NCBI GenBank assembly: GCA_015228815.1 | Contig: JADGCV010000027.1 | Location: forward strand, 1 to 63,836 | DNA length: 63,836 nucleotides | Direction of reading: 5' to 3' | Source: Magnetococcales bacterium | GTDB taxonomy: Bacteria; Pseudomonadota; Magnetococcia; Magnetococcales; UBA8363 | Shown: positions 3,409-63,587 of the stretch, in pieces | Numbering within the stretch: the first letter of the stretch is position 1 | How the letters are laid out: each line of letters opens with the position of its first letter | The notes under the pieces: model-generated | Told to the model about the DNA's origin: nothing | Databases searched by the model: none | The model's input: the letters and a program-made list of their open reading frames with translations, nothing else | Translations under genes and position numbers: made by a program

Positions 3409-3536
3409 GGACGGAATCTTCTACCGCCATGGAACAGGCCAGCGTCACACGAAAAAACATACGCGCCAGAGCCAAACCAGAGATTCGATGCGACATGCAA
3501 CGATGCTCCCAAAAACGGTGGTTATGGAAATTTTCT

Positions 3537-6500: not shown

Positions 6501-6596
6501 CCGGGGCATGAACCCGAACAGGACAACCGCCACGGCCATCGCTTTGCGCCAATCGCAATGACCAACCCGCGACAACACACGCATTGGAGTGTTCAT
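3537..6596 (-). CDS. Exported MORN-repeat and TPR protein with long low-complexity linker
   Basis: The 1019-residue product starts with a signal peptide ending near ATAEC. About four MORN repeats follow (roughly residues 45-135), for example YHGQFRNGQRHGRGQY and YTGEYYMGWRHGQGTL. A ~600-residue linker rich in lysine, proline, threonine and valine contains a fourfold SGGEVA repeat. The C-terminal ~230 residues are TPRs, such as EAHHGRGMALLKLGIPDRAI and EAHYYFERANAIGASGQISQ. MORN repeats contact lipids or proteins and TPRs bind proteins, so a periplasmic scaffold is plausible. The start at 6596 puts the signal peptide at the N-terminus; an ATG at 6584 is an alternative. Confidence 0.75.
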   Translation of the reverse strand: MNTPMRVLSRVGHCDWRKAMAVAVVLFGFMPRFATAECLRGDCQDGVGIFLWPSGDRYHGQFRNGQRHGRGQYVHGDGSVYTGEYYMGWRHGQGTLIWSSGKRYSGTWNRGFQHGPGRKSWPDGRIEQGTFWRDRLVGAARVKGTPVRNEGDSSNPKSRGGSKASSREVLKPREVVKPKESSGHRERSKTREIGQQGGSATPATPVKKGIPAKDVPKATREAAPKTPKEAPAVEKKTTEKESTKPAKETPAKENPKGREVMPPREMIEPRQAVPAKETNKTSGPSGGNVPKTPEKKGNATPGPGVPPAMPKVEQPEQSPKGGRHRPTREGQGSPGDTLRTPNPDAGSAGNAVSRSGSRLEGETLSVADARPLLHRDAAILGVWPSFQSLSPLPSVAPRVRHSVPARRQEIASQEAKPGVMGRHKGPMYPVTLTEVEPVGRLDRILGEDTSPGPRPVPLPKAVVRVQQSPEEVVRMTATMAVPTPRLRSVAIVSSVVVLPAKETTQAEAVTDIGATGAGGSATVMTPEETLPVAVAKLEPVSIMVPVTLPKPVPKPEPIQVPAVTPMVRPRLVFPEPLPLARRGTSLPIVSVAKGLGVVSTSQEVAGGTSDSSGTSVDAETEKRGFDVTEPVLPEKDVPETQLGRVLDDSEWLPGMGVAVPEPRIRVTDAIMAQVFRRMLDEVKPKARVKDTVRLKASWTVTLVDGASVSMERQPVASGGEVASGGEVASGGEVASGGEVAIDETEVVREDAIAFKDLPMPPREKVRDVAAELGQLLREGEMQNEKGQYNRAIYTFTCALGLKPDNPEAHHGRGMALLKLGIPDRAIRDFDAALEGDPGRFDTLLHRGLTLRLLKDFKGSLRDLGLVLVRPETGPEPFVERALTYMEMERYEEALADLRQALTREPRLERAHYVKGLVLARSNRADEAIESFNLAIALNPDEAHYYFERANAIGASGQISQAIGDYDKAIALEENDAEYYFARGNAHQSLKNVDAMCRDLKSACGKGDIEACDAAQIQCR
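4381..4452 (-). repeat. Four exact 18-bp tandem repeats inside the MORN/TPR gene
   Basis: The unit ACTTCCCCTCCTGACGCC (plus strand) occurs four times without change and encodes SGGEVA on the minus strand. Absence of any divergence suggests recent slippage or copy-number variation between strains. Confidence 0.9.
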
Positions 6597-6739
6597 GATT
6601 CCTGGACCACCGGGACTTGAGTTGCACGACCGACCTGACCTGGTGTGGCCCAACCGTCATGACCGGGAACAACGACCGCCCTGGAAGCATCGGGGCGACA
6701 CGGCCCTCCCCGATCCGCTCAAGCGGCGTTCTCCCGATG

Positions 6740-8551
6740 TCACTCCGCCGCGATGGGAACCCGCGCATCCTCCTCCGGAAGCGAAAAATCGACCCCCTCC
6801 GGACTTCCCGAGCCGCCGACATCGTGGGGCTTGACGGTTTTGGGTGATGATAATCCCTTGTTTTGGGAGAAATCATGCATCCTCTGCCACATGCCCTCCT
6901 TATCGGATGTTCCGCCCGATCCCGACATCATTTTAAGCTGTTCCTCGACATCAGGTTCATTTCCGGTCTCCATGGCCGCGAGCAGGGCCGCCGTGGCGCT
7001 TTCATGGCGAAAGGCGATATTGGCCGTCAACGTCGGTGGGGCAAGGTTTTCGAGGCCGGGCATGGGAGGAACAGGATCGCGTCCCAGGGACATCAACAAT
7101 CGACCCAAAGCGACCTGATGGTCGGCGAAGGCCAATCCCTGAAGCACGCGCAGGATCAAGCCCTCCGCATTGGCGACAATCCGCGAACTGTCGGGATCGT
7201 CCTCCTTGCCGGGTGGAAAACGAATGGTGGTCCGTTTCAACCCTTCCTTGTTCCGGTCGCGGATCCCGGCCAGCCTTTTTTCGGTCATCCGGCACTCCAG
7301 GAGCGCCAGATGCACCTGCATGAGGGTGGCAACCCCCTGGGCCAGACGTACCACCCGATTCCCGGTGTCGGAGTCGGCGGCGGGAGGCCGTTGCCCCTCG
7401 ACCAGCTGTCCCGTCAGCGTCATCCCCGCCTCGACCCATGACGGTGCCCCCGCCGGCGCCCACGCCACCGATTCATGTCCCAGACCGGGAAAGGAATGCC
7501 CTGGAAAAGCCGCCATGAGACCCCGCTCCACTTGGGCGCCACCCAACCGCTCTTCCCTGGGAAGATGGGCGCGGTTGGCCCAATGGAGCAACGCCTGGTC
7601 CTCCATGAAGACAACCGGCAGGGCGAGAATCCCCGGATCAAGCATCTCGGTCGCCGCCACCTTCACCCGGACCGCTCCGGCCCCCCCCGGCCATCCCAGC
7701 AATCGGGCGAGCGTTTCCTTGGATGCCTGCAACGTCTTCCGCCATTTCCACAACGTGTCGGTCGTCGTCAGCAGGTCGCTCTGGCTTTTCAGCATCCTGG
7801 CATCCGCCGAGGCCAGGGTTCCTTTGGGAGTTCGCAGGCGCACCAACGCCGCGTTGGCCTCCTGAAGCAATCGATCCAGTTCATCGAGCAACAGATCGGC
7901 GGTCGCCGAGCGCCAGTAGGCGGCACGAACATCGGTCGCGAGCGTCACGGCAACGGCGCGGACCAGCGATGGCGCAGGCTCGCCCCCTCCCGGTTCCCGT
8001 GGCGCCCGTTCCTTTTCCAACGCAAGCGTCACCAGGTTCCATACCACCGCCGGATCGAATTCCCCAAGACGCGCCTCCTCCTCCCCCCTCATCCCTTTTC
8101 CGCCCATCCATCCCGCCGTTTCCAGCCATTCCCGCAACCGCGCCGGGGTCGCATCGGGCGGCGTCAGGGCGATCAATGCCTGAAGCGTCCGATCCATCCG
8201 CTCCTTCATTCCCGCTCCCAGTCCCACGCCCATCGCCTCGAACAGGCCGATGCGACGCTCCACGACCGCCGTCGCTCCCCCCCCCTTCGGCGACGGGAGC
8301 GATTTGGCGGGATCGGCCACCGTCGCAGCCTCCCCCTCCCAGGCAGGAACAGCCAGAAACAATCCCAGGACCATCCCGGGCCACAAGCGATACCGGCGCC
8401 GGGTCCGCCGCGAAACCGCAAGGCCCCCGCCGCCGCCATCGTGCAATGAATGTTTGATCACGTACACGTTCCACCAGAAAAAAAGAATCTTGGACCCGAC
8501 CCCCATCCCGCAAGCACAATGACCGTGGCCGGCAAGGTTAATGGTTTGCAA
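6740..8551 (-). CDS. TolC-like outer-membrane efflux protein (probable)
   Basis: The 603-residue protein has long amphipathic helices. One pair reads DVRAAYWRSATADLLLDELD and LLTTTDTLWKWRKTLQASKE, and a second helical region lies around 430-500. This spacing is typical of the helical barrel of outer-membrane factors (TolC family). These exit ducts work with tripartite pumps, but no pump or adaptor gene is adjacent. The N-terminus is uncertain. The longest start is a TTG at 8551 preceded by AAGAGG, whereas the signal-peptide-like stretch GMVLGLFLAVPAWEGEA begins about residue 59. A start near there would shorten the protein to about 545 residues. Confidence 0.6.
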   Translation of the reverse strand: MQTINLAGHGHCACGMGVGSKILFFWWNVYVIKHSLHDGGGGGLAVSRRTRRRYRLWPGMVLGLFLAVPAWEGEAATVADPAKSLPSPKGGGATAVVERRIGLFEAMGVGLGAGMKERMDRTLQALIALTPPDATPARLREWLETAGWMGGKGMRGEEEARLGEFDPAVVWNLVTLALEKERAPREPGGGEPAPSLVRAVAVTLATDVRAAYWRSATADLLLDELDRLLQEANAALVRLRTPKGTLASADARMLKSQSDLLTTTDTLWKWRKTLQASKETLARLLGWPGGAGAVRVKVAATEMLDPGILALPVVFMEDQALLHWANRAHLPREERLGGAQVERGLMAAFPGHSFPGLGHESVAWAPAGAPSWVEAGMTLTGQLVEGQRPPAADSDTGNRVVRLAQGVATLMQVHLALLECRMTEKRLAGIRDRNKEGLKRTTIRFPPGKEDDPDSSRIVANAEGLILRVLQGLAFADHQVALGRLLMSLGRDPVPPMPGLENLAPPTLTANIAFRHESATAALLAAMETGNEPDVEEQLKMMSGSGGTSDKEGMWQRMHDFSQNKGLSSPKTVKPHDVGGSGSPEGVDFSLPEEDARVPIAAE

Positions 8552-48976: not shown

Positions 48977-49923
48977 AGATTCAGCATCTGTCATCCGAGG
49001 CACTTGAACATCATCTCGGATCAACGGGCTTGCGCTGGATGATTGGACCGTTTCTGATTCATCTTCGCAGTCGCGTCCCCCGGTTTTCCGAGTTTCTTTT
49101 GCAGTTTTATGGCGACAATCAGGCAACCTTCCCCCCCTGGGATGAGATTGCCGATTTTCACCTGACCCTGCAACCTTCCCGGGGATGGCGCCGCTTCATT
49201 CGTCCCAAGGTCCATTTCCGGTTGGATGGCAACTCGTTTTTTGCCCCCTTTCCCCGCGACCATGCCCCCCCCTTGTTCGAATGGGGCCTCAACATGGCCA
49301 TCGCCGCCCGCGTCAATCATCTTCTGCTGCTGCATGCCGCGGTTGTGGAACGGGACGGCCTGGCCCTGGTGTTGCCGGGGACGCCCGGATCGGGAAAGAG
49401 CACCCTGTGCGCCGCTCTGACGCTGCGCGGTTTCCGCCTTCTGTCGGATGAGTTCGGCCTGTATTGTCCCAAACGCCGTGCATTCCTGCCCCATCCACGT
49501 CCCATCGGCCTGAAGAACGAATCGATCGAGGTCATCCGCGACTTCGCCCCCGAGGCGATCCTCGGCCAGGAATATCCCAATACCCGAAAAGGGACGGTCT
49601 GTTATCTGCAACCACCCCGCCAAAGCATCGTTCAAGCCGATCACCCGGCCCCCCCTTCCCGGATCATCTTTCCCATCTTCAATGAACACAGCCCGACCAC
49701 TCTGGAGCGGGTCGATCCCGCCGAAGGATTCTTGCGTCTGGCCGCCAATGCCTTCAACTATGAAACCATGGGCGCCACCGGCTTCGAAGGGATCACCGAT
49801 CTTGTCCGCCGCTCCAGGATGATGCAACTGCGTTTCGGCAGCCTGGATGAAGCGGTCGCCGCCGTGGAAGCGTGGACACACCAGGAATTCTCCGGAAGCG
49901 GCCCCGGAGTCGTGTCGGCATGA
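48973..49923 (+). CDS. HprK-related kinase A
   Basis: The 316-residue protein has a variable N-terminal domain, then a P-loop (VLPGTPGSGKSTLCAALTLR, about residues 135-155), LLSDEFGLYCP with the acidic catalytic region, and GLKNESIEVIRDFAPEAI. This matches the kinase core of HPr kinase/phosphorylase relatives, which phosphorylate serine on proteins or peptides. Similar HprK-like kinases act on lasso-peptide precursors. The start GTG overlaps the PqqD gene, and the next gene starts within its last codon. Confidence 0.83.
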   Translation: MKIQHLSSEALEHHLGSTGLRWMIGPFLIHLRSRVPRFSEFLLQFYGDNQATFPPWDEIADFHLTLQPSRGWRRFIRPKVHFRLDGNSFFAPFPRDHAPPLFEWGLNMAIAARVNHLLLLHAAVVERDGLALVLPGTPGSGKSTLCAALTLRGFRLLSDEFGLYCPKRRAFLPHPRPIGLKNESIEVIRDFAPEAILGQEYPNTRKGTVCYLQPPRQSIVQADHPAPPSRIIFPIFNEHSPTTLERVDPAEGFLRLAANAFNYETMGATGFEGITDLVRRSRMMQLRFGSLDEAVAAVEAWTHQEFSGSGPGVVSA

Positions 49924-51650
49924 GACTGCCGTCGTTCACGCACGAATCGGCCATCTCCTCGATGCGTTCCTTCGTCCGGGGATGGAACACGGTGTCCCTT
50001 CTGGTCTTGGGCATGTTTCTCCGGGTCTTTCCCCACAACGGTCGGGCGTGGGGACAACGAGGGCGCCTGCTGGTGGCCAACGGACGTTTCGGAGAAGCCC
50101 TCCCGTGCCTGCATCAAGCCCTGAAACAGGGACACCAAACCGCACGGATCCATGCCGACCTTGCCCGAAGCTATCGTCATTCGCGACGATGGACCGCCGC
50201 GGAACGATCCTTGCGGCACGCCCTGGAACTGGAACCGCGACACGCGGAATTGTGGCTGGAACTGGGATCGCTTTACATGGGGCGCCAGCGCCATGGCGCG
50301 GCAGTCCATGCCTTCGAACAGGCAATTCACTGCCAACCCGACCATCCGACCCCCCTCTTTCACCTGGCCAGGCTCCACCTTTCCGTGGAACATGTCGATG
50401 CCCAGGCCTGCGAAAAACTTTGCCGCAAGGCCCTGACCCTCGACCCCGATCATGAGGGCTGCCTGTCCCTTCTGGCCAAATCACTCGACATTCTGGGAAG
50501 ACTGGACGAATCCACCGCGATTCATACCCATATCCTGAAGAAAAACCCGAACGATCCCACATCCCTGGAAACCCTGTCCGCCCTGGGACGACTCCCCGGG
50601 GAAACCTTCGGTACGGCGCCCTCCCCGAACACCCTGGTCGAACCATCGCCCTCTGGCCCCCACGTCCATCCCCAGGAACGCGCCATCACCTATTTTTCCC
50701 GGGCCAAGGTGTTCATGAAGCAGGGCCATCACACGGAAGCCTTCTCCCAGTTTCGTGCCGGAAACGCCCTGGTCCGCCAGGGCATCGTTTACGACATTCA
50801 TCAGGATGCGCTGTTTTTTCAACGCATCCAGGCAGTGTTCGATCACGATTTTTTCGCCGTGCGTCGCGGCTGGGGTCATTCATCGGCGAAGCCGGTCTTC
50901 ATCGTCGGGATGCCCCGTTCCGGAACGACCCTGGTCGAACAGATTCTTGCGGCCCACCCCTCCTGTCATGGTGGCGGCGAACGGACCGACCTCATGGAAT
51001 GCGCCCAATCGCTTGGGGTGCTTTCACGTCATCATCAACCGTTTCCCGAGGCGGTCCGGGAACTGACCCCGGAAGAGGCGGACCTCCTCGGAGCAAGTTT
51101 TGTCATGGGGTTGACCCTGGCCGGCGGCGACGCCTTGCGCGTCACCGAAAAACTGCCGCACAATTTTCTTTATCTGGGACTGATTCGCCTGCTTCTCCCC
51201 CAGGCGCGGATCATTCATTGCCGCCGCCATCCGATGGATACCTGCCTGAGTTGTTACCAGCAGATGTTCGCAAGCCTCCACCCCTACGCCTATGATCTGA
51301 CGGAACTGGGTCGTTATTACCGCATGCATCACCATTTGATGGTACATTGGCATCGAACCATTCCGGAAAACCTTCTGGAAATCCACTATGAGGACATCGT
51401 CGCCCATCCGAAGGAATCGATCAGTCGGATTCTCGAACATTGTGGACTCCCCTGGGAGGATCGATGCCTTGAGTTTCACAAGGTTTCCCGTCCGGTCGAT
51501 ACCGCCAGCCTCATCGAGGTGCGGCAACCGCTCTATCGAACCTCGGTGGCGCGCTGGCGTCGGTTCGAAGACGAACTGCACCCCCTGCGCACAGCCCTTG
51601 GAGACCTTCTCGACGAGGCGGGCAATCTCTCGAAACGACCAGAACCGTAG
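49920..51650 (+). CDS. TPR-sulfotransferase fusion protein
   Basis: The 576-residue protein has an N-terminal hydrophobic segment and TPR repeats (about 45-290), such as ALPCLHQALKQGHQTARIHA and AAVHAFEQAIHCQPDHPTPL. The sulfotransferase domain has the PAPS 5'-phosphate loop KPVFIVGMPRSGTTLVEQIL (about 323-342), the conserved helix KLPHNFLYLGLIRLLLPQA and the 3'-phosphate site RRHPMDTCLSCYQ. It is ATGA-coupled to the kinase gene. Fused TPR-sulfotransferases can sulfate proteins, so it may act on the same target as the kinase. This remains inference. Confidence 0.85.
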   Translation: MRLPSFTHESAISSMRSFVRGWNTVSLLVLGMFLRVFPHNGRAWGQRGRLLVANGRFGEALPCLHQALKQGHQTARIHADLARSYRHSRRWTAAERSLRHALELEPRHAELWLELGSLYMGRQRHGAAVHAFEQAIHCQPDHPTPLFHLARLHLSVEHVDAQACEKLCRKALTLDPDHEGCLSLLAKSLDILGRLDESTAIHTHILKKNPNDPTSLETLSALGRLPGETFGTAPSPNTLVEPSPSGPHVHPQERAITYFSRAKVFMKQGHHTEAFSQFRAGNALVRQGIVYDIHQDALFFQRIQAVFDHDFFAVRRGWGHSSAKPVFIVGMPRSGTTLVEQILAAHPSCHGGGERTDLMECAQSLGVLSRHHQPFPEAVRELTPEEADLLGASFVMGLTLAGGDALRVTEKLPHNFLYLGLIRLLLPQARIIHCRRHPMDTCLSCYQQMFASLHPYAYDLTELGRYYRMHHHLMVHWHRTIPENLLEIHYEDIVAHPKESISRILEHCGLPWEDRCLEFHKVSRPVDTASLIEVRQPLYRTSVARWRRFEDELHPLRTALGDLLDEAGNLSKRPEP

Positions 51651-51776
51651 AAAAGGCAGTCAGCGTTTCTTGTTGGTGTCAAGAAATTTCAAATGCGATT
51701 GCCCTGCGTCCAGGAACGTTCCACTGTCAGGATGATTTCCGATGTGGTATGCTTCTGCGGAATAGGAGAAAGAGAT

Positions 51777-52049
51777 ATGACAACGATTACGTTCGACACC
51801 CTGGAATTTGCCGAAGAATTGAAAGCCGCCGGTTTTACCGAAGAACAGGCGAAGGCGCAGGCTCGCGCACTTTCGAAAGCCCTGGAATCCAAGGGGCTGG
51901 CGACGAAGGCCGATCTGAAAGAACTCGATCTTACTTTTAAAGGAGAACTCGAAAAAATTAATGGTGAACTCAAACTCATCAAGTGGATGCTGGCGCTTGT
52001 TGTTGTCGTGACCGTCATTCCCGCTTTGAAGTCGCTATTCATTCCCTGA
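51777..52049 (+). CDS. DUF1640-like coiled-coil membrane protein
   Basis: The 90-residue protein begins MTTITFDTLEFAEELKAAGF and has TEEQAKAQARALSKALESKG, a short coiled coil, and one C-terminal transmembrane helix (KWMLALVVVVTVIPALKSLF). It fits the DUF1640/CCDC90-like family of small tail-anchored proteins with unknown function. AGGAG lies ahead of the ATG at 51777; the frame's extension upstream to 51693 looks non-coding. Confidence 0.75.
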   Translation: MTTITFDTLEFAEELKAAGFTEEQAKAQARALSKALESKGLATKADLKELDLTFKGELEKINGELKLIKWMLALVVVVTVIPALKSLFIP

Positions 52050-53572: not shown

Positions 53573-56500
53573 ATGGCAAATGGCAATTCTTCGGGGGAAC
53601 CCCGGTTCCCGGGTCTCAAGGCGGTCATTCACGGCAACGGCGCCGTGGCGCATGTCATGGGACATGTTTGTGGCGGCGTGATCGGCTACCCCATCACCCC
53701 CTCCACGGAAATCTCCGAGATCTACGAATCCTACCGGGCCAACGGCGGCATGAACGTTTGGGGCCGGCATCCTTTTTTCTTCGAACCGGAAGGGGAACAC
53801 TCGGCGCAGAGCGGCGCCCTCGGGGCAGCGATGACAGGTGGTCTCTATGTTTCCAACGCCTCGTCCAGCCAGGGAATCCTCTATGGCCTGGAATCGCATT
53901 ATGTCACCGCCGGAAAGAAAGTCGGTGGATTCGTTCTCCATATTGCCGCGCGCGTGGTGTCCAAACACTCCCTCAACGTCATGGCGGGGCATGACGATGT
54001 CTACGCCATGGTCAATTCGGGCTATACCATCCTGTTCGGCAGCAATCCCCAGGAGGCGGCGGATCTGGCGGCCATCAGCTACAAGGTCAGCGCCCTGTCG
54101 CTGATTCCCGTCGCCAACGCGATGGACGGCTTCGCCACCTCCCACATGCAAAGCGAGGCGCTCCTCCCCGAAGCGCAGCTGCTCAAGACCTTCGTCGGCG
54201 ATCCCGAAGAACGGATCCCCTGTCCGACCCTGGCCCAGGAAATGCTTTTTGGCGCCAAGGGGCGGGTCGTTCAACTGAAGAGTTTCCTCCAGAAGAACCG
54301 GACCGATTTTACCGATGCCGCCTTCGGTCAACTCATGGCCCATCTTGACGCCAACGCCCACGAAGTGGAACAGGACAATGAGGGAGGCACCATTGGTCGG
54401 ACCCTCGAATGGATCCCCGAACCCCTTCAAGCCCGCTGGAGCCGTCAATGGCGCAATGCCCAACCCAAGGGTACGCGCCAACGGGTCCCGGCCCTCATCG
54501 ATCCCAACAATCCCGGATCCACGGGGCCGGTGCAGAACCAGCCCGACTTTCAGGCCGGCTCCGCCGATCACCGTTCCCACTTCGCCAGCGCCGTGCCCGG
54601 ATTCATCCGTCAGGCGATGGAAGAGTACTCCCAGCTCACCGGTCGCTCCTACACCCCGGTTGCGACCTACCGCAACGACGATGCCGATTGTGTCATTGTC
54701 TCCATGGGATCGGTCACCGACGACGTCGAAGCGGTCGTCGATCACCTGAGAAACCAGGGACATCGGGTCGGCTCCGTCTCCATCAAACAGTTCATGCCCT
54801 TCCCCGAGGCGGATATCGTGACGGCACTCCAGGGTAAACGGGCAGTGACCGTCCTGGAACGCTCCGATTCCACCCTCTTGAGCGAACTTGTGGCCAACGC
54901 CCTCTTCAAGGCGGTGCAAAACCACAAACAGCCGCGACATGACGGCATCCCCGCAATCCACGAAGCCCCGATCCTGTGTACCGGAATTTTCGGCCTTGGC
55001 GGTCATGATCTGCAACCCCGGCATCTGGTCGCGGCTTTTCGCAACATGGAGGAAGGAAAGAACATCCCTCTGTTCTATCTTGGCTCCCGGTTTTTCGAGG
55101 AGGCCCAGGATCAGGAATTGATCGATCTGCAACAACGGTTGCGCCAGGCCTATCCCGAAACGACGCGGATGTCCTTCGCCACCGAGACCAATCCCCACCT
55201 ACTGCCTTCCGGTGCGCTCCGGGTCCGGTTTCATTCGGTCGGCGGATACGGCACCATCGCCACCGGGAAACTTTTGACCGACATTCTGTCCGGGGTCATG
55301 GAACTCCATTCCAAATCGGCGCCGAAATACGGCTCCGAAAAAAGCGGCGCCCCGACCAACTTCTATCTGACCCTCAGCCCTGAACCGATCAAGATCACCA
55401 ATGCCGAGCTCGAAGAGGTCGAAATCGTCCTTTCCCCCGACCACAAGGTCTTCGAGCACACCAATCCATTGCGCGGTCTGACCGATGGCGGCACGTTCAT
55501 CATGCAGTCCAACGAGACGCCGCTCGATGTCTGGAAAGGACTGCCCGCCTCCGCCCGGCGTGTGATTCGGGAAAAGGGGATCAATTTCCATGTTGTCGAT
55601 GCCTTCAGCATCGCCAAGGAAAACGCGCCGACCCAGGATCTCCAGGTGCGGATGATGGGCATTGCCTTCATCGGCGCCATGTGCGGCAATGTCTCCCAGG
55701 TGGTCGGAAGATCGACCGAAGAGACCCTGCTGACCAAGATCCAGAACCAGATCCAGAAAAAGTTTGGCGGCAAGGGCGACAAGGTGGTCGCCAGCAACAT
55801 GGCGGTCATCAAACGGGGCATCCTCTCGACCCGCAAGGTTGAATACAACGAGCCTGCCTTCGTCGAGGCGGAGGGACAACAGGCCCAGAGCAGCCGCGGG
55901 CCTGGAGTGGCCATATCCGCCGCCATGGTGCAACGTGGTCCCGCCTCGGGTTGCGCCGGCATGTTCGACCAGAATTATTTTACCAAGACAGCCGCCGATC
56001 CGATCAAGGCGGGGACCATCGGCGAAAGCCCGGTCTTCCCCGGTCAGGGATTGCACATCCCCATTGCCACCGCCGCATGGAAGGACAAGGGGCTGTTCCG
56101 GCTGGATGTTCCCGAATACATACCGCACCTGTGTACCGGTTGCATGGAATGCGCCATTGCCTGTCCCGACGCCGCCATTCCCAACACTGTGCATGAAATC
56201 CACGACCTCATCAACGCCGGCATCGCCGAGTTGCCCATTCCTCCCCAGCAAAAGCACGCCCTGAGCGATCTGGTGATTCCTCTTGCCAATGTGGTCCGGG
56301 AGATCTATCGCAAACTGCCCGCCAAGGATCCGAAGCCGTTCAGTGAAGCGGTCGCCGACGCCGGTTTCCAGATGGACATCGGGATGGACTTTGGTTCCAG
56401 CACCACCACCCGGGAAAATTTTTCAAAACTGGTCACGGTCCTGTCACGGTTTCAGGTGGCCAAGACCCGCCCCTTCTTCGATGCCATGGAAAAGGGGGTT

Positions 56501-58612
56501 CCGGGAAGCGGTGGACTCTATTCGGTGGCGGTGGATCCCTGGAAATGCACCGGATGCCTCGAATGCGTCGATGTCTGCGGCCCCAAGGCGCTCGTCGAAC
56601 GGGTCCAGACCCCGGACCTGGCGCGGAGGCTCGAAGAATCCTTCACCTTTTTGTCACGCCTTCCCAATACCCCGAACCGGTTTTTCAACAACGCACTGGG
56701 GGCCGGAGGCGATACCAAACGACTGATGCTCGACCACAAGAACTATTATGCCCTGACCGGAGGCCATGGCGCCTGCCGCGGATGCGGCGAAGTGACTGCG
56801 GTCCGGCTGTTCACCGGCATGAACCGGGCACTGCACAGCGAACGTCATCGGCGCCGTCTGTCGCATCTGGAACAGCTCCTGGCCCAGGTCAAGGAGAAGC
56901 TGTCGCAACTCGACGGCGATGAAAACCGTCGCCGGCGATTGCACGCCGTCGTTCCCGTCATCGAACGCAGCCTGTTCAACCTGGAAAGCGGCCCGACCGG
57001 CAATGGTCCCGCCAATGCCGTTTTCGCCAACGCCACCGGGTGTACCAGTGTCTATGGTTCGACCTTTCCTTTCAATCCCTACACCGACCCGTGGGTCAAC
57101 AGCCTGTTTCACGATACCGCGCCCCTCGCCAAGGGGATTTTCGAAGGGTTGTCGCAGAACATGGCCCAGGAATTCAAGGCGGTCCGGGTGGCACGACTTG
57201 AAATCGAAGACAGCTACGACCCCGCCGTCCACGATGGCTTTTTCAAATACTTTGGCTGGGAGGATTTCGATCATGAGGAGCGCTCTCTGCTGCCGACGGT
57301 TCTGACCCTGGGCGGCGACGGTTCCCAGTTCGACATCGGTTTTGGCGCCTTGTCACGCCTGCTGGCGACCCGGACACCGATCAAATGCGTCATCGTCGAT
57401 ACCGGCGTCTATTCCAACACCGGAGGCCAGGCCTCGACGTCGAGCTACATGGGGCAGGATTCCGATCTGGCGCGTCATGGAAAAAAACATGGCGGAAAGA
57501 CGGAGAGTCGCAAGGAATTGGGGCTTCTGGCCGCATTTCATCCCCATGTCTTCGTGGTCCAGACCTCGGTCGGCATCCAGAACCATTTTCTGAAAAACGT
57601 CCTGGATCTTCTCAATCATCAGGAAACCCCGGCGCTTTTGACGGTCTATACCCCCTGCCAGCCGGAACACGGCATCGGCGACAACGCCTCGACCCGGCGC
57701 GCCCGGGAGGCGGTGCAAAGCCGGATGCATCCGGTGTTCGTCCATCATCCTCTGGCGGGAAATTCGCTGTCGGAACGTTTTTCCATCGAGGGCAACCCCG
57801 ATCCCGAAAGCGACTGGAGCAAAACAACCATCGCCTACGATGATGCCGAAGGACATCCGCAAATCAAGGAAATTCCCTTCACGCCAGCCGATTTTGCCGT
57901 CAAGGAAGGGCGTTTCAAGAAACATTTCACCCCGGTGCGCGACGATGACGAACTGCGCGAGATTGCGCCATACATCGCCCTTTCGCCCGAGGCGCGGGAA
58001 GGATTGACCCCGTTTGTCTGGTCCACCGACAAGAAGAATCATCTGGTCAAACTGGCGGTATCCCCCGCCATCGTCGCCATGACCGACGACTGCCTGCGTC
58101 ACTGGCGAACGCTGCAAACCCTTTCGGGAATGCAGTTGGGACAGATGGCCGAAAGCCACCGCCGCGAGATGGAACTGTGGAAGGAACGCTATGCCCAGGC
58201 GGTCAAGGAACGCGAACAAAGCATGGATTCGATTGCCCGCGGCATGTCGGAACTGGCTTCCGGGGCCAGGGCCCGGGCAGCGGGAATCGTCGGCGCCGCC
58301 CTGGTGGGGGCGGGTGTTCTGCCTGCCGCCGAAGGAAGTGCCGCGGCGGGTGGCAAGGGTTCGGGCAAACCCCTCGTGATGATCGCCGAGGAGGACATTT
58401 ACAAATGCTCCAACTGCAAAAAGTGCTATCTCGATGTCAGCACCCTTTTTGAAAACGTGACCATCATGCACGAAGGAAAGTCCAAAGAGGTCAGCCGGGT
58501 GAAACAAGGGGTTCTGCAAACGTTGGAACTGACACCCGAACTGATCAAGAAAGCCGAACGTGTCGCCAACGATTGCGATGCCGCGATCATTCAGTTCAAC
58601 CGTCCGGCATGA
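53573..58612 (+). CDS. Large pyruvate:ferredoxin oxidoreductase-type 2-oxoacid oxidoreductase
   Basis: This enzyme interconverts pyruvate and acetyl-CoA plus CO2 with low-potential electrons. The 1679-residue chain exceeds the usual ~1170-1230. In order it has: domain I opening at GGVIGYPITPSTEISEIYES with an insert near 190-335; domain II (MGSVTDDVEAVV); the gamma-like domain (FHSVGGYGTIATGKLLTDIL, from ~550); two 4Fe-4S motifs CTGCMECAIACPD (~853) and CTGCLECVDVCGP (~992); and the thiamine diphosphate domain from GACRGCGE (~1066) with GDGSQFDIG (~1247). A ~200-residue tail carries a further CSNCKKC motif (~1612). GGGGAAAGA precedes the ATG. The next gene encodes a probable electron partner. 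Confidence 0.9.
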   Translation: MANGNSSGEPRFPGLKAVIHGNGAVAHVMGHVCGGVIGYPITPSTEISEIYESYRANGGMNVWGRHPFFFEPEGEHSAQSGALGAAMTGGLYVSNASSSQGILYGLESHYVTAGKKVGGFVLHIAARVVSKHSLNVMAGHDDVYAMVNSGYTILFGSNPQEAADLAAISYKVSALSLIPVANAMDGFATSHMQSEALLPEAQLLKTFVGDPEERIPCPTLAQEMLFGAKGRVVQLKSFLQKNRTDFTDAAFGQLMAHLDANAHEVEQDNEGGTIGRTLEWIPEPLQARWSRQWRNAQPKGTRQRVPALIDPNNPGSTGPVQNQPDFQAGSADHRSHFASAVPGFIRQAMEEYSQLTGRSYTPVATYRNDDADCVIVSMGSVTDDVEAVVDHLRNQGHRVGSVSIKQFMPFPEADIVTALQGKRAVTVLERSDSTLLSELVANALFKAVQNHKQPRHDGIPAIHEAPILCTGIFGLGGHDLQPRHLVAAFRNMEEGKNIPLFYLGSRFFEEAQDQELIDLQQRLRQAYPETTRMSFATETNPHLLPSGALRVRFHSVGGYGTIATGKLLTDILSGVMELHSKSAPKYGSEKSGAPTNFYLTLSPEPIKITNAELEEVEIVLSPDHKVFEHTNPLRGLTDGGTFIMQSNETPLDVWKGLPASARRVIREKGINFHVVDAFSIAKENAPTQDLQVRMMGIAFIGAMCGNVSQVVGRSTEETLLTKIQNQIQKKFGGKGDKVVASNMAVIKRGILSTRKVEYNEPAFVEAEGQQAQSSRGPGVAISAAMVQRGPASGCAGMFDQNYFTKTAADPIKAGTIGESPVFPGQGLHIPIATAAWKDKGLFRLDVPEYIPHLCTGCMECAIACPDAAIPNTVHEIHDLINAGIAELPIPPQQKHALSDLVIPLANVVREIYRKLPAKDPKPFSEAVADAGFQMDIGMDFGSSTTTRENFSKLVTVLSRFQVAKTRPFFDAMEKGVPGSGGLYSVAVDPWKCTGCLECVDVCGPKALVERVQTPDLARRLEESFTFLSRLPNTPNRFFNNALGAGGDTKRLMLDHKNYYALTGGHGACRGCGEVTAVRLFTGMNRALHSERHRRRLSHLEQLLAQVKEKLSQLDGDENRRRRLHAVVPVIERSLFNLESGPTGNGPANAVFANATGCTSVYGSTFPFNPYTDPWVNSLFHDTAPLAKGIFEGLSQNMAQEFKAVRVARLEIEDSYDPAVHDGFFKYFGWEDFDHEERSLLPTVLTLGGDGSQFDIGFGALSRLLATRTPIKCVIVDTGVYSNTGGQASTSSYMGQDSDLARHGKKHGGKTESRKELGLLAAFHPHVFVVQTSVGIQNHFLKNVLDLLNHQETPALLTVYTPCQPEHGIGDNASTRRAREAVQSRMHPVFVHHPLAGNSLSERFSIEGNPDPESDWSKTTIAYDDAEGHPQIKEIPFTPADFAVKEGRFKKHFTPVRDDDELREIAPYIALSPEAREGLTPFVWSTDKKNHLVKLAVSPAIVAMTDDCLRHWRTLQTLSGMQLGQMAESHRREMELWKERYAQAVKEREQSMDSIARGMSELASGARARAAGIVGAALVGAGVLPAAEGSAAAGGKGSGKPLVMIAEEDIYKCSNCKKCYLDVSTLFENVTIMHEGKSKEVSRVKQGVLQTLELTPELIKKAERVANDCDAAIIQFNRPA

Positions 58613-58644: not shown

Positions 58645-61515
58645 ATGGATCAAATGCACACTTCCATGGAATACAACTACGATCCGTCCGATCTTGAACG
58701 GTACTATCGCGCCTCGCAGGAAATCGAGGCGACCAGCCATCATCAGCAATCGGTGGCGGAACAGATGAAAAATCTTGAAAGCAGTCATGCGGTCGAGATT
58801 TTCCAGAAGCAGATGGATCTGCTCAAGGAACGGTTGTTCAACAATCCGGCGATGTTTCGTGGCATTTTCATCGAGGAAGGGGTCGAGGCGATCGCCAACG
58901 AGTTCAAGAAGGAGGAGATGTCCGGAGAATTCATCCATAAATTCTGGCATCTTCTGTTGCAGGACGACGCCATGAGCGTCGTCCTGATGCGTTTTGTCTG
59001 GGATGTCCCCCTGAAGTTCAAGAGAAGGTTCATCCAGGCCCTCGACCGGCACCTTTCCGAGCGCTACCCGATGTTCAAAGGGCTGTCGGTGAACTGGCCG
59101 AGTCAGAACAACATTCCGCCCTACATCCGCCCCGCCAACGAGCGCAACAAGGATTTCGATCTGGTGACCCAGGGGTATCTGGGCTACATGGGATTGGGAT
59201 ATTCCTTCCGCGAGGTGGAGTTGTTTGTCTGGCTCGAAGTGTTGCGCGACAAGCAGTGTGACGACCGTCCCTGCGAAATCGGCGTTCAATGCGGCAAGAG
59301 CGAACCCAAAGGAGGATGTCCGGTCAAGATTCACATTCCGGAAATGCTTCACTGCCTGGGCGAGGGGCGTTTCGAGGATGCCTACGCCATCATCCGCGAT
59401 TCCAATCCGCTGCCCAACGTCACCGGTCGCGTCTGCCCCCAGGAACATCAATGCCAGGGGGTGTGTACGCTTTCGGAAAAACCGATGGAAATCGGCCAGT
59501 TGGAATGGTATCTGCCGCAAAGCCGCAAGGTTCGCGATCCGGAGGCATTGTTTGCCCTCGCCAGTGATTATGTCAGTCCGTGGATCGAGGGGAAAAAACC
59601 GCCGATCGCCGTTGTCGGCTCCGGTCCGGCAGGGATGATCAACGCCTATCTTCTGCTCAAGGAAGGGTTTCCGGTCACGGTATTCGAGGCGTTTCACGAA
59701 CTGGGCGGGGTGCTGCGTTATGGCATTCCCGAATTCCGCCTTCCCAATGAATTGATCGATGATGTCATCAAGAAGATCAAGCAATTGGGTGGTGAATTCG
59801 TCACCAATTTCCTTGTCGGCAAGACAGCGACGCTGACACAACTCAAGGAAGCGGGGTTCTGGAAAATCTTCGTGGGGACGGGGGCCGGATTGCCGAAGTT
59901 TCTCAACGTCCCCGGGGAACACCTCAACGGGGTGATGTCGGCCAATGAATTCTTGACCCGGGTCAACCTGATGCAGGCGCATCGGGAAGATTATGAAACC
60001 CCTCTGCCGGACATCGAGGGCAAGAAGATCATCGTCATCGGCGGCGGCAACACGGCGATGGACTCGGTGCGCACGGCCAAACGGTTGGGCGGGGATGTCA
60101 CCATCGTCTACCGCCGGACCCGCGAGGAAATGCCGGTTCGGGTCGAGGAGTTGCATCATGCCCTGGAGGAAGGGGTGGCTCTGAAGGTATTGCGGACCCC
60201 CATCGAATTTCGCGGCGACAACCATCATTTTGTCCGCGAGGCGGTCTTGGATGTCATGACCCTGGGTGAACCCGATGCTTCGGGCCGGCGCAGTCCGGTG
60301 CATACGGGGCATACCGAGACCATTCAGATCGATCTGGCCATCATGGCGCTTGGCAACAGCTCCAATCCGATCGTCAAGGATGCGGAACCGGGGTTGAAGA
60401 CGACCAAATGGGGCACCATCGAGGTCGGACCCAATTCCCAGGAAACCTCGATCGAGAATGTTTTCAGCGGCGGTGACGCGGCCCGTGGTGGCTCGACGGC
60501 GATCAAGGCGGCGGGTGATGGTCTGAGTGCCGCCCGCGAGATCGGGATGAACCTGCCGGACGATCCCCTGGCGATCCGCAAGATGGTCGCCAAGGCGATC
60601 CACTACACCCGGATGGGACAGGCCAGGGCGGTCATCCGTGACAAGATTCAACTGGCCGAAGGGATTGTCGAGTTCGTCGTCGAATCACCCCTGATCGCGC
60701 GCGCGGCGAAGGCGGGACAGTTTGTCCGGGTGTTGGCCTGGCAAAAGGGTGAATTGATTCCCCTGACCCTGGCCGACTGGGATGCCCGCCGGGGCACCAT
60801 CACCCTGGTGGTTCAGGGGTTGGGAACGAGCAGCATGGTGATCAACAGGATGGCCATCGGGGAAAGTTTTCACGGAATCGCCGGTCCCCTGGGATTGCCA
60901 AGCCATCTGAAACGTTATGAAAATGGGGAAACAGTCGTCTTCACCGCAGGCGGGGTGGGTCTGCCGCCGGTCTATCCGATCATGCGGGAACATCTGGAGT
61001 TGGGCAATCATGTCACCCTGATTTCCGGTTTTCGGAGCAAGGGGCATATTTTCTGGTCGCGGGTCGATGAACGGGTTGGCCGGTTGCAGGCACGGTTTCC
61101 GAAAACCCTCGAAGTCATCTATACGACCAACGATGGCAGCATGGGCTTCAAGGGCTTTGTGACGGGACCGCTGATGAAAATCCTCGAAAAAGCCCGCGAC
61201 GGACAGGGAAGGCCGGTCGGAGAGGTGGTCACCATCGGCCCGCCACTGATGATGCGGGCGGTCAGTGATCTGACCCGTCCCTTCGGTGTACGCACCATCG
61301 CCAGCCTCAACTCGATCATGGTCGATGCGACCGGCATGTGCGGTGCGTGCATGGTCCCGGTGACCATCAATGGCAAGATGGTGCGCAAACATGCCTGCAT
61401 CGATGGTCCGGAGTTGGATGCCCACATCATCGATTGGGAAAAATTCATGCCCAGATTCATGCAGTTCCGCGCCAAGGAACTCAAAAGCATGGAGGCTCAC
61501 GGACTGAAGGTGTAA
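58645..61515 (+). CDS. Nfn-like fused flavoprotein (NfnB/GltD-type plus NfnA-type domains)
   Basis: The 956-residue protein has an N-terminal ~190 residues of no known family, then a GltD/NfnB-type half. That half has a cysteine-rich 4Fe-4S domain (GRVCPQEHQCQGVCTLSEKP), an FAD-binding VVGSGPAGMINAYLL, and NAD(P)-binding VIGGGNTAMDSVRTAK. A ferredoxin-NADP-reductase-like NfnA half follows, ending with the 2Fe-2S-type cysteines in ATGMCGACMVP. Nfn couples NADH, NADPH and ferredoxin by electron bifurcation; here both subunits are one chain. AGGAG lies eight bases before the ATG. It sits 32 bases after the PFOR gene, so it probably exchanges electrons with that enzyme's ferredoxin. Confidence 0.87.
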   Translation: MDQMHTSMEYNYDPSDLERYYRASQEIEATSHHQQSVAEQMKNLESSHAVEIFQKQMDLLKERLFNNPAMFRGIFIEEGVEAIANEFKKEEMSGEFIHKFWHLLLQDDAMSVVLMRFVWDVPLKFKRRFIQALDRHLSERYPMFKGLSVNWPSQNNIPPYIRPANERNKDFDLVTQGYLGYMGLGYSFREVELFVWLEVLRDKQCDDRPCEIGVQCGKSEPKGGCPVKIHIPEMLHCLGEGRFEDAYAIIRDSNPLPNVTGRVCPQEHQCQGVCTLSEKPMEIGQLEWYLPQSRKVRDPEALFALASDYVSPWIEGKKPPIAVVGSGPAGMINAYLLLKEGFPVTVFEAFHELGGVLRYGIPEFRLPNELIDDVIKKIKQLGGEFVTNFLVGKTATLTQLKEAGFWKIFVGTGAGLPKFLNVPGEHLNGVMSANEFLTRVNLMQAHREDYETPLPDIEGKKIIVIGGGNTAMDSVRTAKRLGGDVTIVYRRTREEMPVRVEELHHALEEGVALKVLRTPIEFRGDNHHFVREAVLDVMTLGEPDASGRRSPVHTGHTETIQIDLAIMALGNSSNPIVKDAEPGLKTTKWGTIEVGPNSQETSIENVFSGGDAARGGSTAIKAAGDGLSAAREIGMNLPDDPLAIRKMVAKAIHYTRMGQARAVIRDKIQLAEGIVEFVVESPLIARAAKAGQFVRVLAWQKGELIPLTLADWDARRGTITLVVQGLGTSSMVINRMAIGESFHGIAGPLGLPSHLKRYENGETVVFTAGGVGLPPVYPIMREHLELGNHVTLISGFRSKGHIFWSRVDERVGRLQARFPKTLEVIYTTNDGSMGFKGFVTGPLMKILEKARDGQGRPVGEVVTIGPPLMMRAVSDLTRPFGVRTIASLNSIMVDATGMCGACMVPVTINGKMVRKHACIDGPELDAHIIDWEKFMPRFMQFRAKELKSMEAHGLKV

Positions 61516-61674: not shown

Positions 61675-62706
61675 ATGGATCAACATCATCAAACCACCTG
61701 CTGGCACTGTCTGGTCGGCACCATACTGAAAACTCTGCTGGAACCGGTCGGCATCGACGTGCATTCCGAGGTTCAGGTTGTTTCCGCACCCCCCAAGGCA
61801 GACTTGATCCTGATTCAACGAAAGGACTATGGTTGGACAGATGAGCAACGGTTGCGCCTGGCGGATGGACTGCAAGACCTTGATGCAGACCATATCCTGG
61901 TTGAATTGAAAGTTACCGAAAGCCTGAATGAGGAGGCCTTGTCGCAATTGAGCGTCTATGACCATCTGTACCTGGATACGGCAAGGTTGCAACGGCATCA
62001 ACTGCGAAGTATTTTGATCAGTGCCAAGACACCCGAACGGAAATTTATCGAACGTTTTGCCTTTGAACCTGTCGGACCCAAGGGGGTCTATGAAAGCAAG
62101 CCTGTCTGGGGTGGTCTGCTCCGGTTGATTCTTTTGAACGAATTGGTGGATGAACCACGAAATGCTCCGTTGAAATGTTTTGCCAGCCGACAGGATGAGC
62201 GAAAAAAGGCGTTCAAAACCATTGAGCATGCAGGATTGCTCAAGCTGTCCGTGGCATTTGGCCGGGTCATGATCGGTTTATGGAGATTGCAGATGAAGAA
62301 TTCACTGAATAGTCCAGAGATGGAAGGAATCACCCCGGAATATGTCATGCAGCTTGGAAAAGAGTGGTTTGAATCGATGATCGATACCACACCTGATGAT
62401 GAACCTTTTTCCCTACAAAAATTTGAGCATCGTTTGCAACAGGAATATCGGGATGGACGCCAGGAAGGCGAACGTGATGGCGAGAGAAAAGGGAAAGCTG
62501 AAGGGAAAGCTGAAGGGAAAGCCGAAGGGAAAGCCGAAGGAAAGGCTGAAATACTGACCCGCCAGTTACAATACCGCTTTGGTACTGTCCCTGAATGGGT
62601 CAGTATTAAAATTACCCAGGCCGAACCGGACTCTTTGGAGACGTGGAGTCTTCGGATTCTGGACGCCCAATCATTGGATGAAGTGTTCGCGGATAAAGAA
62701 CGATGA
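61675..62706 (+). CDS. PD-(D/E)XK-like nuclease-family protein with DUF4351-like tail
   Basis: The 343-residue protein has a nuclease-like core: DVHSEVQVVSAPPKADLILI supplies the acidic residue and DHILVELKVTESLNEE the ExK pair. A helical middle region comes next, then five KAEG repeats from a 12-bp tandem repeat, and a tail LQYRFGTVPEWVSIKIT ending SLDEVFADKER. The tail resembles that of Rpn-family proteins (compare 16032-16565), which promote recombination. An ATG at 61675 starts the frame. A partly deleted near-copy follows downstream. Confidence 0.7.
   Translation: MDQHHQTTCWHCLVGTILKTLLEPVGIDVHSEVQVVSAPPKADLILIQRKDYGWTDEQRLRLADGLQDLDADHILVELKVTESLNEEALSQLSVYDHLYLDTARLQRHQLRSILISAKTPERKFIERFAFEPVGPKGVYESKPVWGGLLRLILLNELVDEPRNAPLKCFASRQDERKKAFKTIEHAGLLKLSVAFGRVMIGLWRLQMKNSLNSPEMEGITPEYVMQLGKEWFESMIDTTPDDEPFSLQKFEHRLQQEYRDGRQEGERDGERKGKAEGKAEGKAEGKAEGKAEILTRQLQYRFGTVPEWVSIKITQAEPDSLETWSLRILDAQSLDEVFADKER
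62491..62550 (+). repeat. Five 12-bp repeats encoding KAEG units
   Basis: GGGAAAGCTGAA occurs twice, GGGAAAGCCGAA twice, and GGAAAGGCTGAA once. The same array is at 63372-63431 in the duplicated copy. Confidence 0.9.
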
Positions 62707-62857: not shown

Positions 62858-63587
62858 TTGGATCAACATCAGCAAACGACCTGCTGGCACTGTCTGGTCG
62901 GCACCATACTGAAAACTCTGCTGGAACCGGTCGGCATCGACGTGCATTCCGAGGTTCAGGTTGTTTCCGCACCCCCCAAGGCAGATCTGGGGTGGTCTGC
63001 TCCGGTTGATTCTTTTGAACGAATTGGTGGATGAACCACGAAATGCTCCGTTGAAATGTTTTGCCAGCCGACAGGATGAGCGGAAAAAGGCGTTCAAAAC
63101 CATTGAGCATGCAGGATTGCTCAAGCTGTCCGTGGCATTTGGCCGGGTCATGATCGGTTTATGGAGATTGCAGATGAAGAATTCACTGAATAGTCCAGAG
63201 ATGGAAGGAATCACCCCGGAATATGTCATGCAGCTTGGAAAAGAGTGGTTTGAATCGATGATCGATACCACACCTGATGATGAACCTTTTTCCCTACAAA
63301 AATTTGAGCATCGTTTGCAACAGGAATATCGGGATGGACGCCAGGAAGGCGAACGTGATGGCGAGAGAAAAGGGAAAGCTGAAGGGAAAGCTGAAGGGAA
63401 AGCCGAAGGGAAAGCCGAAGGAAAGGCTGAAATACTGACCCGCCAGTTACAATACCGCTTTGGTACTGTCCCTGAATGGGTCAGTATTAAAATTACCCAG
63501 GCCGAACCGGACTCTTTGGAGACGTGGAGTCTTCGGATTCTGGACGCCCAATCATTGGATGAAGTGTTCGCGGATAAAGAACGATGA
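62858..63587 (+). pseudogene. Second copy of the nuclease-like gene, frameshifted by internal deletion
   Basis: It begins TTG where copy one has ATG, follows copy one to the codons PPKAD, then continues at the equivalent of 62105. Exactly 302 bases (61803-62104) are missing. As 302 is not a multiple of three, the frame ends soon after the joint and the nuclease core ExK is lost. A downstream frame (62961-63587) preserves only the C-terminal half. Confidence 0.85.

Follow-up and report, generated by a model that had tools for sequence, protein, structure and literature searches.

Single-chain pyruvate:ferredoxin oxidoreductases (PFOR/NifJ; TIGR02176, with 1b0p and 6cin as the D. africanus and Moorella structures) set the frame for the protein described here, P0001, which matches them in domain order, in catalytic residues, and in the ligands of three [4Fe-4S] clusters. 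P0001 is encoded in a 63,836-nucleotide stretch of DNA from a Magnetococcales bacterium (GenBank assembly GCA_015228815.1, contig JADGCV010000027.1), which we refer to in full as the window. It exceeds the NifJ used for comparison by about 500 residues: domain I contains an insert, domains V and VI are larger, and a ferredoxin domain is predicted at the C-terminus. Its gene is followed by one for a fused Nfn-like protein, P0002. We consider it likely that P0001 is a PFOR with a captive single-cluster ferredoxin that feeds an exchangeable acceptor, here a Pattern C Nfn, and that the two form a two-protein pyruvate:NAD(P) oxidoreductase. Pattern C Nfn proteins, with Mobiluncus curtisii as the type, are fused, have the NfnA-type part at the C-terminus, are about 200 residues longer, and occur in Actinobacteria and Proteobacteria (PMC6405883). 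Liang et al. 2019 regard the fused Nfn patterns, Pattern C included, as uncharacterized (PMC6405883); the accessible parts of that paper name PFOR in the legend of a gene-arrangement figure and describe neither a tailed PFOR nor a fixed pairing. In the tree published by Poudel et al. (PMC6085437), the Pattern C protein of Mobiluncus takes a basal position in Nfn.

PFOR and bifurcating modules have been associated before. In propionibacteria, PFOR is co-transcribed with two flanking Nfn-like genes, a single bifurcating complex has been proposed, and PFOR knockout severely crippled the growth of P. freudenreichii (PMC7650540). That system has two separate Nfn-like genes and a proposed quinol donor, with no tail described in the accessible text, whereas P0002 is fused. 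The propionibacterial ferredoxin system has also been ascribed to FixABCX (PMC8360058), homologues of which were not found in PMC7650540. Por-Bfu joins pyruvate oxidoreductase genes with a flavin-based bifurcating module, consisting of BfuABC and a four-subunit POR, and represents a bifurcating family other than NfnAB (PMC9304861). Among the scanned flanking ORFs (open reading frames) of the window there is no BfuB/BfuC-type gene: the PFOR neighbor belongs to NF009415, the ORF at 51693-52049 is CCDC90-like, and that at 61675-62706 matches DUF4351. In Euglena and Cryptosporidium, pyruvate:NADP+ oxidoreductase consists of a PFOR core with a fused flavodoxin/P450-reductase-type domain. The shared feature is a PFOR core wired to an NADP+-reducing module, but the fused reductase differs from the separate P0002, and P0001 matches 12 Pfam families at E ≤ 0.001, none of them of the flavodoxin/P450-reductase type.

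We found no ferredoxin-tailed PFOR in searches of open-licence papers or in the accessible text of PMC7650540, PMC8360058, PMC5088516, PMC6405883, PMC6085437, PMC9973337, and PMC9304861, though one may be described elsewhere; the same literature yielded no pairing of such a tail with Pattern C Nfn, no joint loss of the two, and no Rnf alternative. Pattern C Nfn and a PFOR–Nfn-like complex are already known; we did not see the ferredoxin tail or the switch between Nfn and Rnf reported in these papers.

The original prediction for this locus, made from its letters alone, described a PFOR of about 1679 residues at 53573-58612. The ORF, on the plus strand, is indeed single, uninterrupted, and full length, with full-length homologues of 84-88% identity in all seven other genomes of the genus, which rules out an assembly or frameshift artefact. 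P0001 exceeds the Pfam gathering scores for POR_N (122.8 versus 27 bits), PFOR_II (62.9 versus 27), and POR (92.7 versus 27.4), and misses the TIGR02176 cut-off (414.1 versus 911.35 bits), which places it outside that equivalog. When P0001 is aligned with Azospirillum NifJ (1172 residues), the reference used for mapping inserts, the thiamine pyrophosphate (TPP) and substrate positions and the 12 cysteines of the three standard clusters correspond. We take the catalytic and cluster-ligand roles and numbers to be those assigned from the D. africanus PFOR structure. Of 77 aligned proteins, 75 retain all 17 key positions (T42, E75, R127, eight domain V cysteines, four proximal-cluster cysteines, D1249, and N1282); the other two miss only the first two positions, at contig ends. 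Judged by sequence, the core is a normal PFOR with pyruvate as its putative substrate.

The enlargements differ somewhat from what had been described. The insert previously placed near residues 190-335 is present, but the alignment confines it to 72 residues, 230-301, absent from Azospirillum NifJ and from both Rnf-linked relatives discussed below. To this single insert can be added two enlarged regions, with gains over NifJ of 59 residues within 900-964, between the domain V clusters, and of 50 residues within 1080-1148, between proximal-cluster cysteines; five shorter expansions of 16-25 residues each accompany them. The C-terminal tail, previously given as some 200 residues with three cysteines in a CSNCKKC motif, is likewise real, but the stretch without a NifJ counterpart runs for about 158 residues, from about 1522 to the end, and holds a fourth cysteine, C1668.

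This tail is predicted to be a single-cluster ferredoxin domain carrying a putative low-potential [4Fe-4S] or [3Fe-4S] cluster. The CSNCKKC cysteines (C1612, C1615, C1618) and C1668 reproduce the C-x2-C-x2-C ... C ligand pattern of single-cluster ferredoxins, and all four are invariant in the ten proteins that were chosen without the motif, namely the eight of the genus and the two Rnf-linked relatives. Their invariance across 67 aligned tails adds little alone because 63 of those rows were picked by the four-cysteine pattern (alignment A2 was built from 63 of the 64 tail loci plus three of the seven genus relatives). At E ≤ 1, 62 of these 67 tails match Fer4_15 and 59 match Fer4_13, the best member reaching E 6.1e-6 with Fer4_15. 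A search with the tail profile led to Hydrogenobacter thermophilus ferredoxin 1 (E 1.6e-4). Modeled with AlphaFold, the tail is predicted to take the single-cluster ferredoxin fold, with confident values for residues 1600-1679 (predicted local distance difference test, pLDDT, 88-95 per block) and low confidence for the linker before them. The top six Foldseek matches of this model are single-cluster ferredoxins (E 0.013-0.092), as are the first six rows of the VIA-align comparison, which comprise all matches with Z ≥ 8 (Z 8.6, 8.5, 8.4, 8.3, 8.3, and 8.1); the superposition on 2z8q_A gives Z 8.6 and a root-mean-square deviation of 2.3 over 66 residues. The fold and cysteine pattern resemble those of the ferredoxins of P. 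furiosus (2z8q), H. thermophilus (Fd1, 7m1o), and R. palustris (4ov1), at Z 8.3-8.6; these are free proteins, whereas the domain in P0001 is joined to PFOR through a long linker. Four invariant cysteines together with the predicted fold rule out the view of the tail as three stray cysteines. The tail is fairly widespread, but its predicted fold is one of electron transfer.

A 32-nt gap separates the PFOR stop codon from the partner gene, which adjoins PFOR in all eight genomes of the genus. P0002 scores above the NF009415 cut-off (1645.6 versus 1519 bits, residues 15-954). In alignments with P. furiosus NfnI, its residues 196-635 correspond to the large subunit (5jca_L) and 666-950 to the small subunit (5jca_S), and the NfnI ligand motifs CPQE-x-QC-x3-C and D-x4-C-x2-C...C line up. 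The order of an NfnB-type before an NfnA-type part, with about 200 extra residues, is the Pattern C layout as given in the accessible parts of PMC6405883, and P0002 fits a Pattern C Nfn with putative bifurcation among NADPH, NAD+, and ferredoxin. The first 207 or so residues are helical in the predicted model. For this extension (alignment A3, which took 41 of 46 loci), Pfam gives only scattered matches, each from 1 of 42 alignment members; there is no PDB sequence match at E ≤ 10, the best Foldseek E is 1.0, and the best fold-comparison Z is 4.5. A known docking fold was rejected on this basis, with nothing above noise in Pfam, PDB sequences, or folds, a result that does not by itself amount to a new fold.

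The partner might instead couple PFOR electrons and quinol, rather than NADH, to NAD(P)+, as proposed for propionibacteria, where co-transcription, matching regulation, and the crippled growth of P. freudenreichii after CRISPR knockout of PFOR speak for such a complex (PMC7650540, accessible text). In P0002, however, the alignment of the NfnA part to P. furiosus NfnI beta runs the length of that part and takes in both the NAD(H) domain and the [2Fe-2S] motif, and the propionibacterial case, likened here by its published description only, involves two separate flanking genes. We regard quinol coupling at this locus as very improbable.

To follow the tail and its partner across genomes, we surveyed the best 80 matches ranked by similarity to P0001, some of them cut by contig ends. 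These loci share the layout, with 48-63% identity in the best segment, and span Alpha-, Beta-, and Gammaproteobacteria, Actinomycetota, and SAR324; at least 80 loci in other classes and phyla rule out uniqueness to this genome. With two plasmid loci from Gemmatirosa and Persicobacter added, the set came to 82, of which 69 were assessable, their sequence reaching 900 nt or more past the PFOR stop codon. The 13 loci set aside (cut by a contig end or with under 900 nt past the stop) comprised 11 without the tail motif and two with it. A strict tail motif together with an adjacent partner, at a projected gap of -150 to +87 nt, was present at 62 of the 69 assessable loci. The seven without the strict motif were L042 and L043, which carry a tail with shorter cysteine spacing; L117, a broken ORF with its partner further downstream and a tblastn match that reaches residue 1674; and L072, L112, L080, and L122.

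The linkage was also approached from the other side, with P0002 alone as the query against 391 genomes of the Rhodopseudomonas family (E ≤ 1e-150). Thirty genomes matched, among them the centre genome, which had entered the analysis by way of its PFOR, and others that possibly repeat species of the best-80 survey. In all 30, the upstream stretch matches P0001 by tblastn and ends in the tail motif; a narrow EGRF motif marks the upstream PFOR in only two of them. Overall, the PFOR–Nfn pair is rare: P0002-like genes (E ≤ 1e-100) occur in 8 of 398 genomes of the same phylum, all within the genus, and at E ≤ 1e-150 the samples from the Mobiluncus phylum (396 genomes) and from the Rhodopseudomonas class (385 genomes) have a single match each, their own centre genome.

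In four PFOR genes (L072, L112, L080, and L122) the tail is genuinely missing, and the 1.5 kb that follows contains no four-cysteine motif. All four also stand without an adjacent Nfn partner. Their genomes, partly drafts, contain no full Pattern C Nfn: matches to P0002 begin at residue 208 or beyond, and residues 1-207 find no match. The tail-less genes fall in two places on the tree, a Pleomorphomonas/Rhodospirillum clade and Mobiluncus mulieris. M. mulieris (L122, 9887-14791) has neither tail nor Pattern C Nfn, and its sister M. curtisii (L091) has both. The contig of L079 ends before the tail would begin, and L079 groups with the tail-less Pleomorphomonas rows; three tail changes are counted when it is labeled as tailed by default, and two losses suffice when it is left unlabeled. 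We infer two joint losses of tail and partner. The idea in the original prediction that the tail is an electron relay or docking domain for the Nfn-like protein has thus fared well as regards the relay, given the predicted ferredoxin fold and a presence that tracks the adjacent Nfn gene (both at 62 of 69 loci, neither at four, and 30 of 30 in the reverse search).

Across 64 rows, PFOR and Nfn distances have a Pearson correlation of 0.90. The Nfn tree recovers 33 of the 40 strong PFOR splits, and three conflict with strong Nfn splits. This agreement shows joint inheritance, not contact. The tree on which the losses were placed carries warnings of long branches meeting (L071 with the Rnf-linked rows, among others) and of uneven composition, and its root and deepest order are unsure. 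Near the tail-less Pleomorphomonas PFORs, by eye, an FpR-like ferredoxin/flavodoxin-NADP reductase lies about 2 kb away (L112, 16678-17532, minus strand; L072, 11920-12795, minus strand), which by its sequence is perhaps a replacement acceptor.

The tail could also be protective, acting against oxygen or in dimer contacts, with a structural cluster and with free ferredoxin as the electron carrier. In D. africanus PFOR, the C-terminal domain is protective, and some carriers of the tailed enzyme are, going by their names, presumably facultative or aerobic. A ferredoxin fold, as predicted, with four conserved cysteines nevertheless fits a redox cluster, and the tail is missing where Nfn is missing, as would not be expected if it served protection alone. 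We find such a role barely credible.

On plasmids of Gemmatirosa (Gemmatimonadota) and Persicobacter (Bacteroidota), rnfC and other rnf-type genes come after a tailed PFOR. Pfam assigns RnfC_N and Complex1_51K at both loci, NQR2_RnfD_RnfE in Persicobacter, and FMN_bind together with an upstream RnfB-type FeS protein in Gemmatirosa; a search of these two plasmid records gave no P0002 match. Both PFORs keep the tail and are without the 72-residue insert. Because they keep the tail and fall outside the Nfn-linked rows of the tree (for which a very distant NifJ served as the root, and which carries a long-branch warning), the tail is probably older than the Nfn partnership, and the acceptor can probably change. 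These two records, where rnf genes adjoin a tailed PFOR and a P0002-like gene is absent, would suit a tail that serves as an outlet to several acceptors (nitrogenase, hydrogenase, Rnf, or flavodoxin), with the Nfn gene merely co-regulated. Such an arrangement is distinctly unlikely, given that all 30 PFOR-independent Nfn matches, from one family, lie directly behind a tailed PFOR, that tail and partner are jointly missing in all four tail-less genes, and that no RnfC-like ORF occurs within the flanks of the best 80 loci. At the Gemmatirosa locus (L042), a 2-oxoacid oxidoreductase beta-type gene (TPP_enzyme_C, 3044-4003) lies just upstream of the rnfB/PFOR/rnfC run, and its sequence suggests that several 2-oxoacid oxidoreductases may feed Rnf in Gemmatirosa.

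From the observed domains, conserved ligands, tight linkage, and joint absence, we infer a mechanism for the captive ferredoxin and its Nfn acceptor in which docking, electron path, bifurcation, and direction would be as follows. Pyruvate would be cleaved at TPP in the PFOR core, and the electrons would pass from TPP through the proximal, medial, and distal [4Fe-4S] clusters. The tail, on its flexible linker, would take them from the outermost cluster to the partner complex rather than to soluble ferredoxin, and the tail cluster would hand them to the NfnB clusters and then to the bifurcating FAD, with the N-terminal domain of P0002 (about 207 residues) probably docking PFOR or its tail. Confurcation at low oxygen is most likely, as pyruvate + CoA + NADH + 2 NADP+ -> acetyl-CoA + CO2 + NAD+ + 2 NADPH; the reverse direction is possible. 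In a sister lineage, the same tailed PFOR is placed beside Rnf. Given potentials of -500 mV for pyruvate, about -380 mV for NADP(H), and about -280 mV for NAD(H) under physiological conditions (PMC9304861, accessible parts), electron flow from pyruvate and NADH to two NADPH would run downhill, and the reverse would be near balance.

The same genome encodes a second PFOR, tail-less and split over two genes (679 and 550 aa; 3212-6958 of another contig). Among 40 genomes from the other families of this order, 38 have sequence matches to a tail-less PFOR of this kind (E ≤ 0.001), and the tailed PFOR finds no full-length match in any of them. Many carriers among the best 80 loci are, as we take from their names, fermenters or phototrophs, wastewater or gut bacteria, some of them facultative or aerobic. 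We favor the oxidative direction because of these presumed lifestyles and the separate tail-less PFOR. The original prediction had pictured a pyruvate synthase in CO2 fixation. Running in reverse, the pair would bifurcate NADPH to NAD+ and the tethered ferredoxin and thereby carboxylate acetyl-CoA, for CO2 fixation or acetate assimilation. PFORs are reversible, and the closest ferredoxin in the tail profile search comes from Hydrogenobacter, which uses the reductive tricarboxylic acid cycle. No RuBisCO match was found in the genome (99.21% estimated completeness), a result that leaves room for this route and at the same time gives CO2 fixation no specific support; a citrate-lyase family search for ATP-citrate lyase returned no match anywhere, controls included, and carries no weight either way. 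Many carriers, again presumed from their names, are not known autotrophs, and the genome has 2-oxoacid dehydrogenase E1 matches besides its tail-less two-gene PFOR. CO2 fixation by the pair is possible, and pyruvate synthesis as its main function appears unlikely.

We return to the captive ferredoxin with an exchangeable acceptor, against which several points weigh. The tail of P0001 itself lies below the Fer4_15 gathering cut-off (14.2 versus 22.4 bits), the Foldseek E-values are weak, at 0.013 at best, and in the tail profile search a designed helical coil outranks the ferredoxin through the linker helix, although the matching stretches there do not pass individually. The 80 loci are the best of a list ranked by similarity to P0001, and the reverse test is confined to one family, with the centre genome among its matches. 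The joint losses number only two, two of the tail-less genomes (L072 and L080) are metagenome-assembled genomes of unstated completeness, and linkage and tree agreement are also expected from simple co-inheritance. The Rnf linkage comes from two records, and Liang et al. hold that Nfn function is not predictable from sequence (PMC6405883, accessible parts). A broader form of the proposal is accordingly offered more tentatively, as one that we would neither assert nor dismiss: a bacterial, self-contained pyruvate:NAD(P) oxidoreductase in which a ferredoxin swinging arm would serve an exchangeable bifurcating or ion-pumping acceptor (Nfn through its docking domain, or Rnf), low-potential electrons would be kept off the free ferredoxin pool, and pyruvate oxidation would become possible in facultative or aerobic bacteria.

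The tailed PFOR gives the uncharacterized Pattern C Nfn a natural electron partner and a clear assay, and M. mulieris and M. curtisii offer a natural pair for comparing the absence and presence of tail and Nfn. If electrons are channeled, the arrangement would explain how bacteria that are not strict anaerobes use a low-potential PFOR without leak from soluble ferredoxin. It would also provide a two-gene module for pyruvate oxidation to NADPH, or for NADPH-driven pyruvate synthesis, of relevance to fermentation physiology and metabolic engineering. The features of the locus are collected in Table 1.

Table 1. Features of the tailed PFOR and its Nfn-like partner, with positions in the window
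Feature	Position	Strand	Basis
P0001, PFOR-type 2-oxoacid oxidoreductase with C-terminal ferredoxin tail	53573..58612	+	1679 aa ORF, Pfam, conserved residues
72-residue domain I insert, residues 230-301	54260..54475	+	alignment
First domain V [4Fe-4S] motif, C854, C857, C860, C864	56132..56164	+	alignment
Enlarged region between the two domain V clusters, within residues 900-964	56270..56464	+	alignment versus NifJ
Second domain V [4Fe-4S] motif, C992, C995, C998, C1002	56546..56578	+	alignment
Proximal-cluster C1068, C1071, C1157 and enlarged region within 1080-1148	56774..57043	+	alignment
TPP-binding region GGDG ... YSNTGGQ, residues 1247-1286	57311..57430	+	alignment
Fourth proximal-cluster ligand, C1362	57656-57658	+	alignment
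Helix (mean pLDDT 65-79, first 30 residues) and low-confidence, probably flexible linker, residues 1520-1599	58130..58369	+	AlphaFold model
Predicted single-cluster ferredoxin domain, residues 1600-1679, C1612, C1615, C1618, C1668	58370..58609	+	conservation, Fer4_15, predicted structure
P0002, fused Pattern C Nfn-like protein (PRK12779), 956 aa	58645..61515	+	NF009415 score
Helical N-terminal extension, residues 1-207, candidate docking domain	58645..59265	+	predicted model
NfnB/GltD-like part, residues 214-635: 4Fe-4S motifs, FAD and NADP(H) domains	59284..60549	+	Pfam; 5jca_L E 1.6e-109
NfnA-like part, residues 664-951: FAD, NAD(H) domain, [2Fe-2S] motif VDATGMCGAC...AC	60634..61497	+	5jca_S E 1.3e-69
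Terminator-like hairpin right after the Nfn stop codon	61522..61545	+	consensus scan

The hairpin behind P0002 would close a two-gene operon, in a scan that gave 18 terminator-like sites in 9 kb against 9.5 expected. No FNR-type site was found in the window at one mismatch or fewer (2.4 expected by chance). We propose no regulator because the upstream region is poorly conserved within the genus, at 59% mean column identity. By eye, the other neighbors vary around the pair in three relatives from the genus. Beyond the hairpin, two near-identical tandem genes lie on the plus strand at 61675-62706 and 62961-63587, the first matching DUF4351 and the second repeating its C-terminal part after a different start; a mobile-element duplication beside the operon is possible from their sequences. 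On the other side of the pair, the gene at 49872-51650 (plus strand) encodes a fusion of tetratricopeptide repeats (TPR) with a sulfotransferase, to judge from the Pfam matches (Sulfotransfer_3 and TPR repeats).

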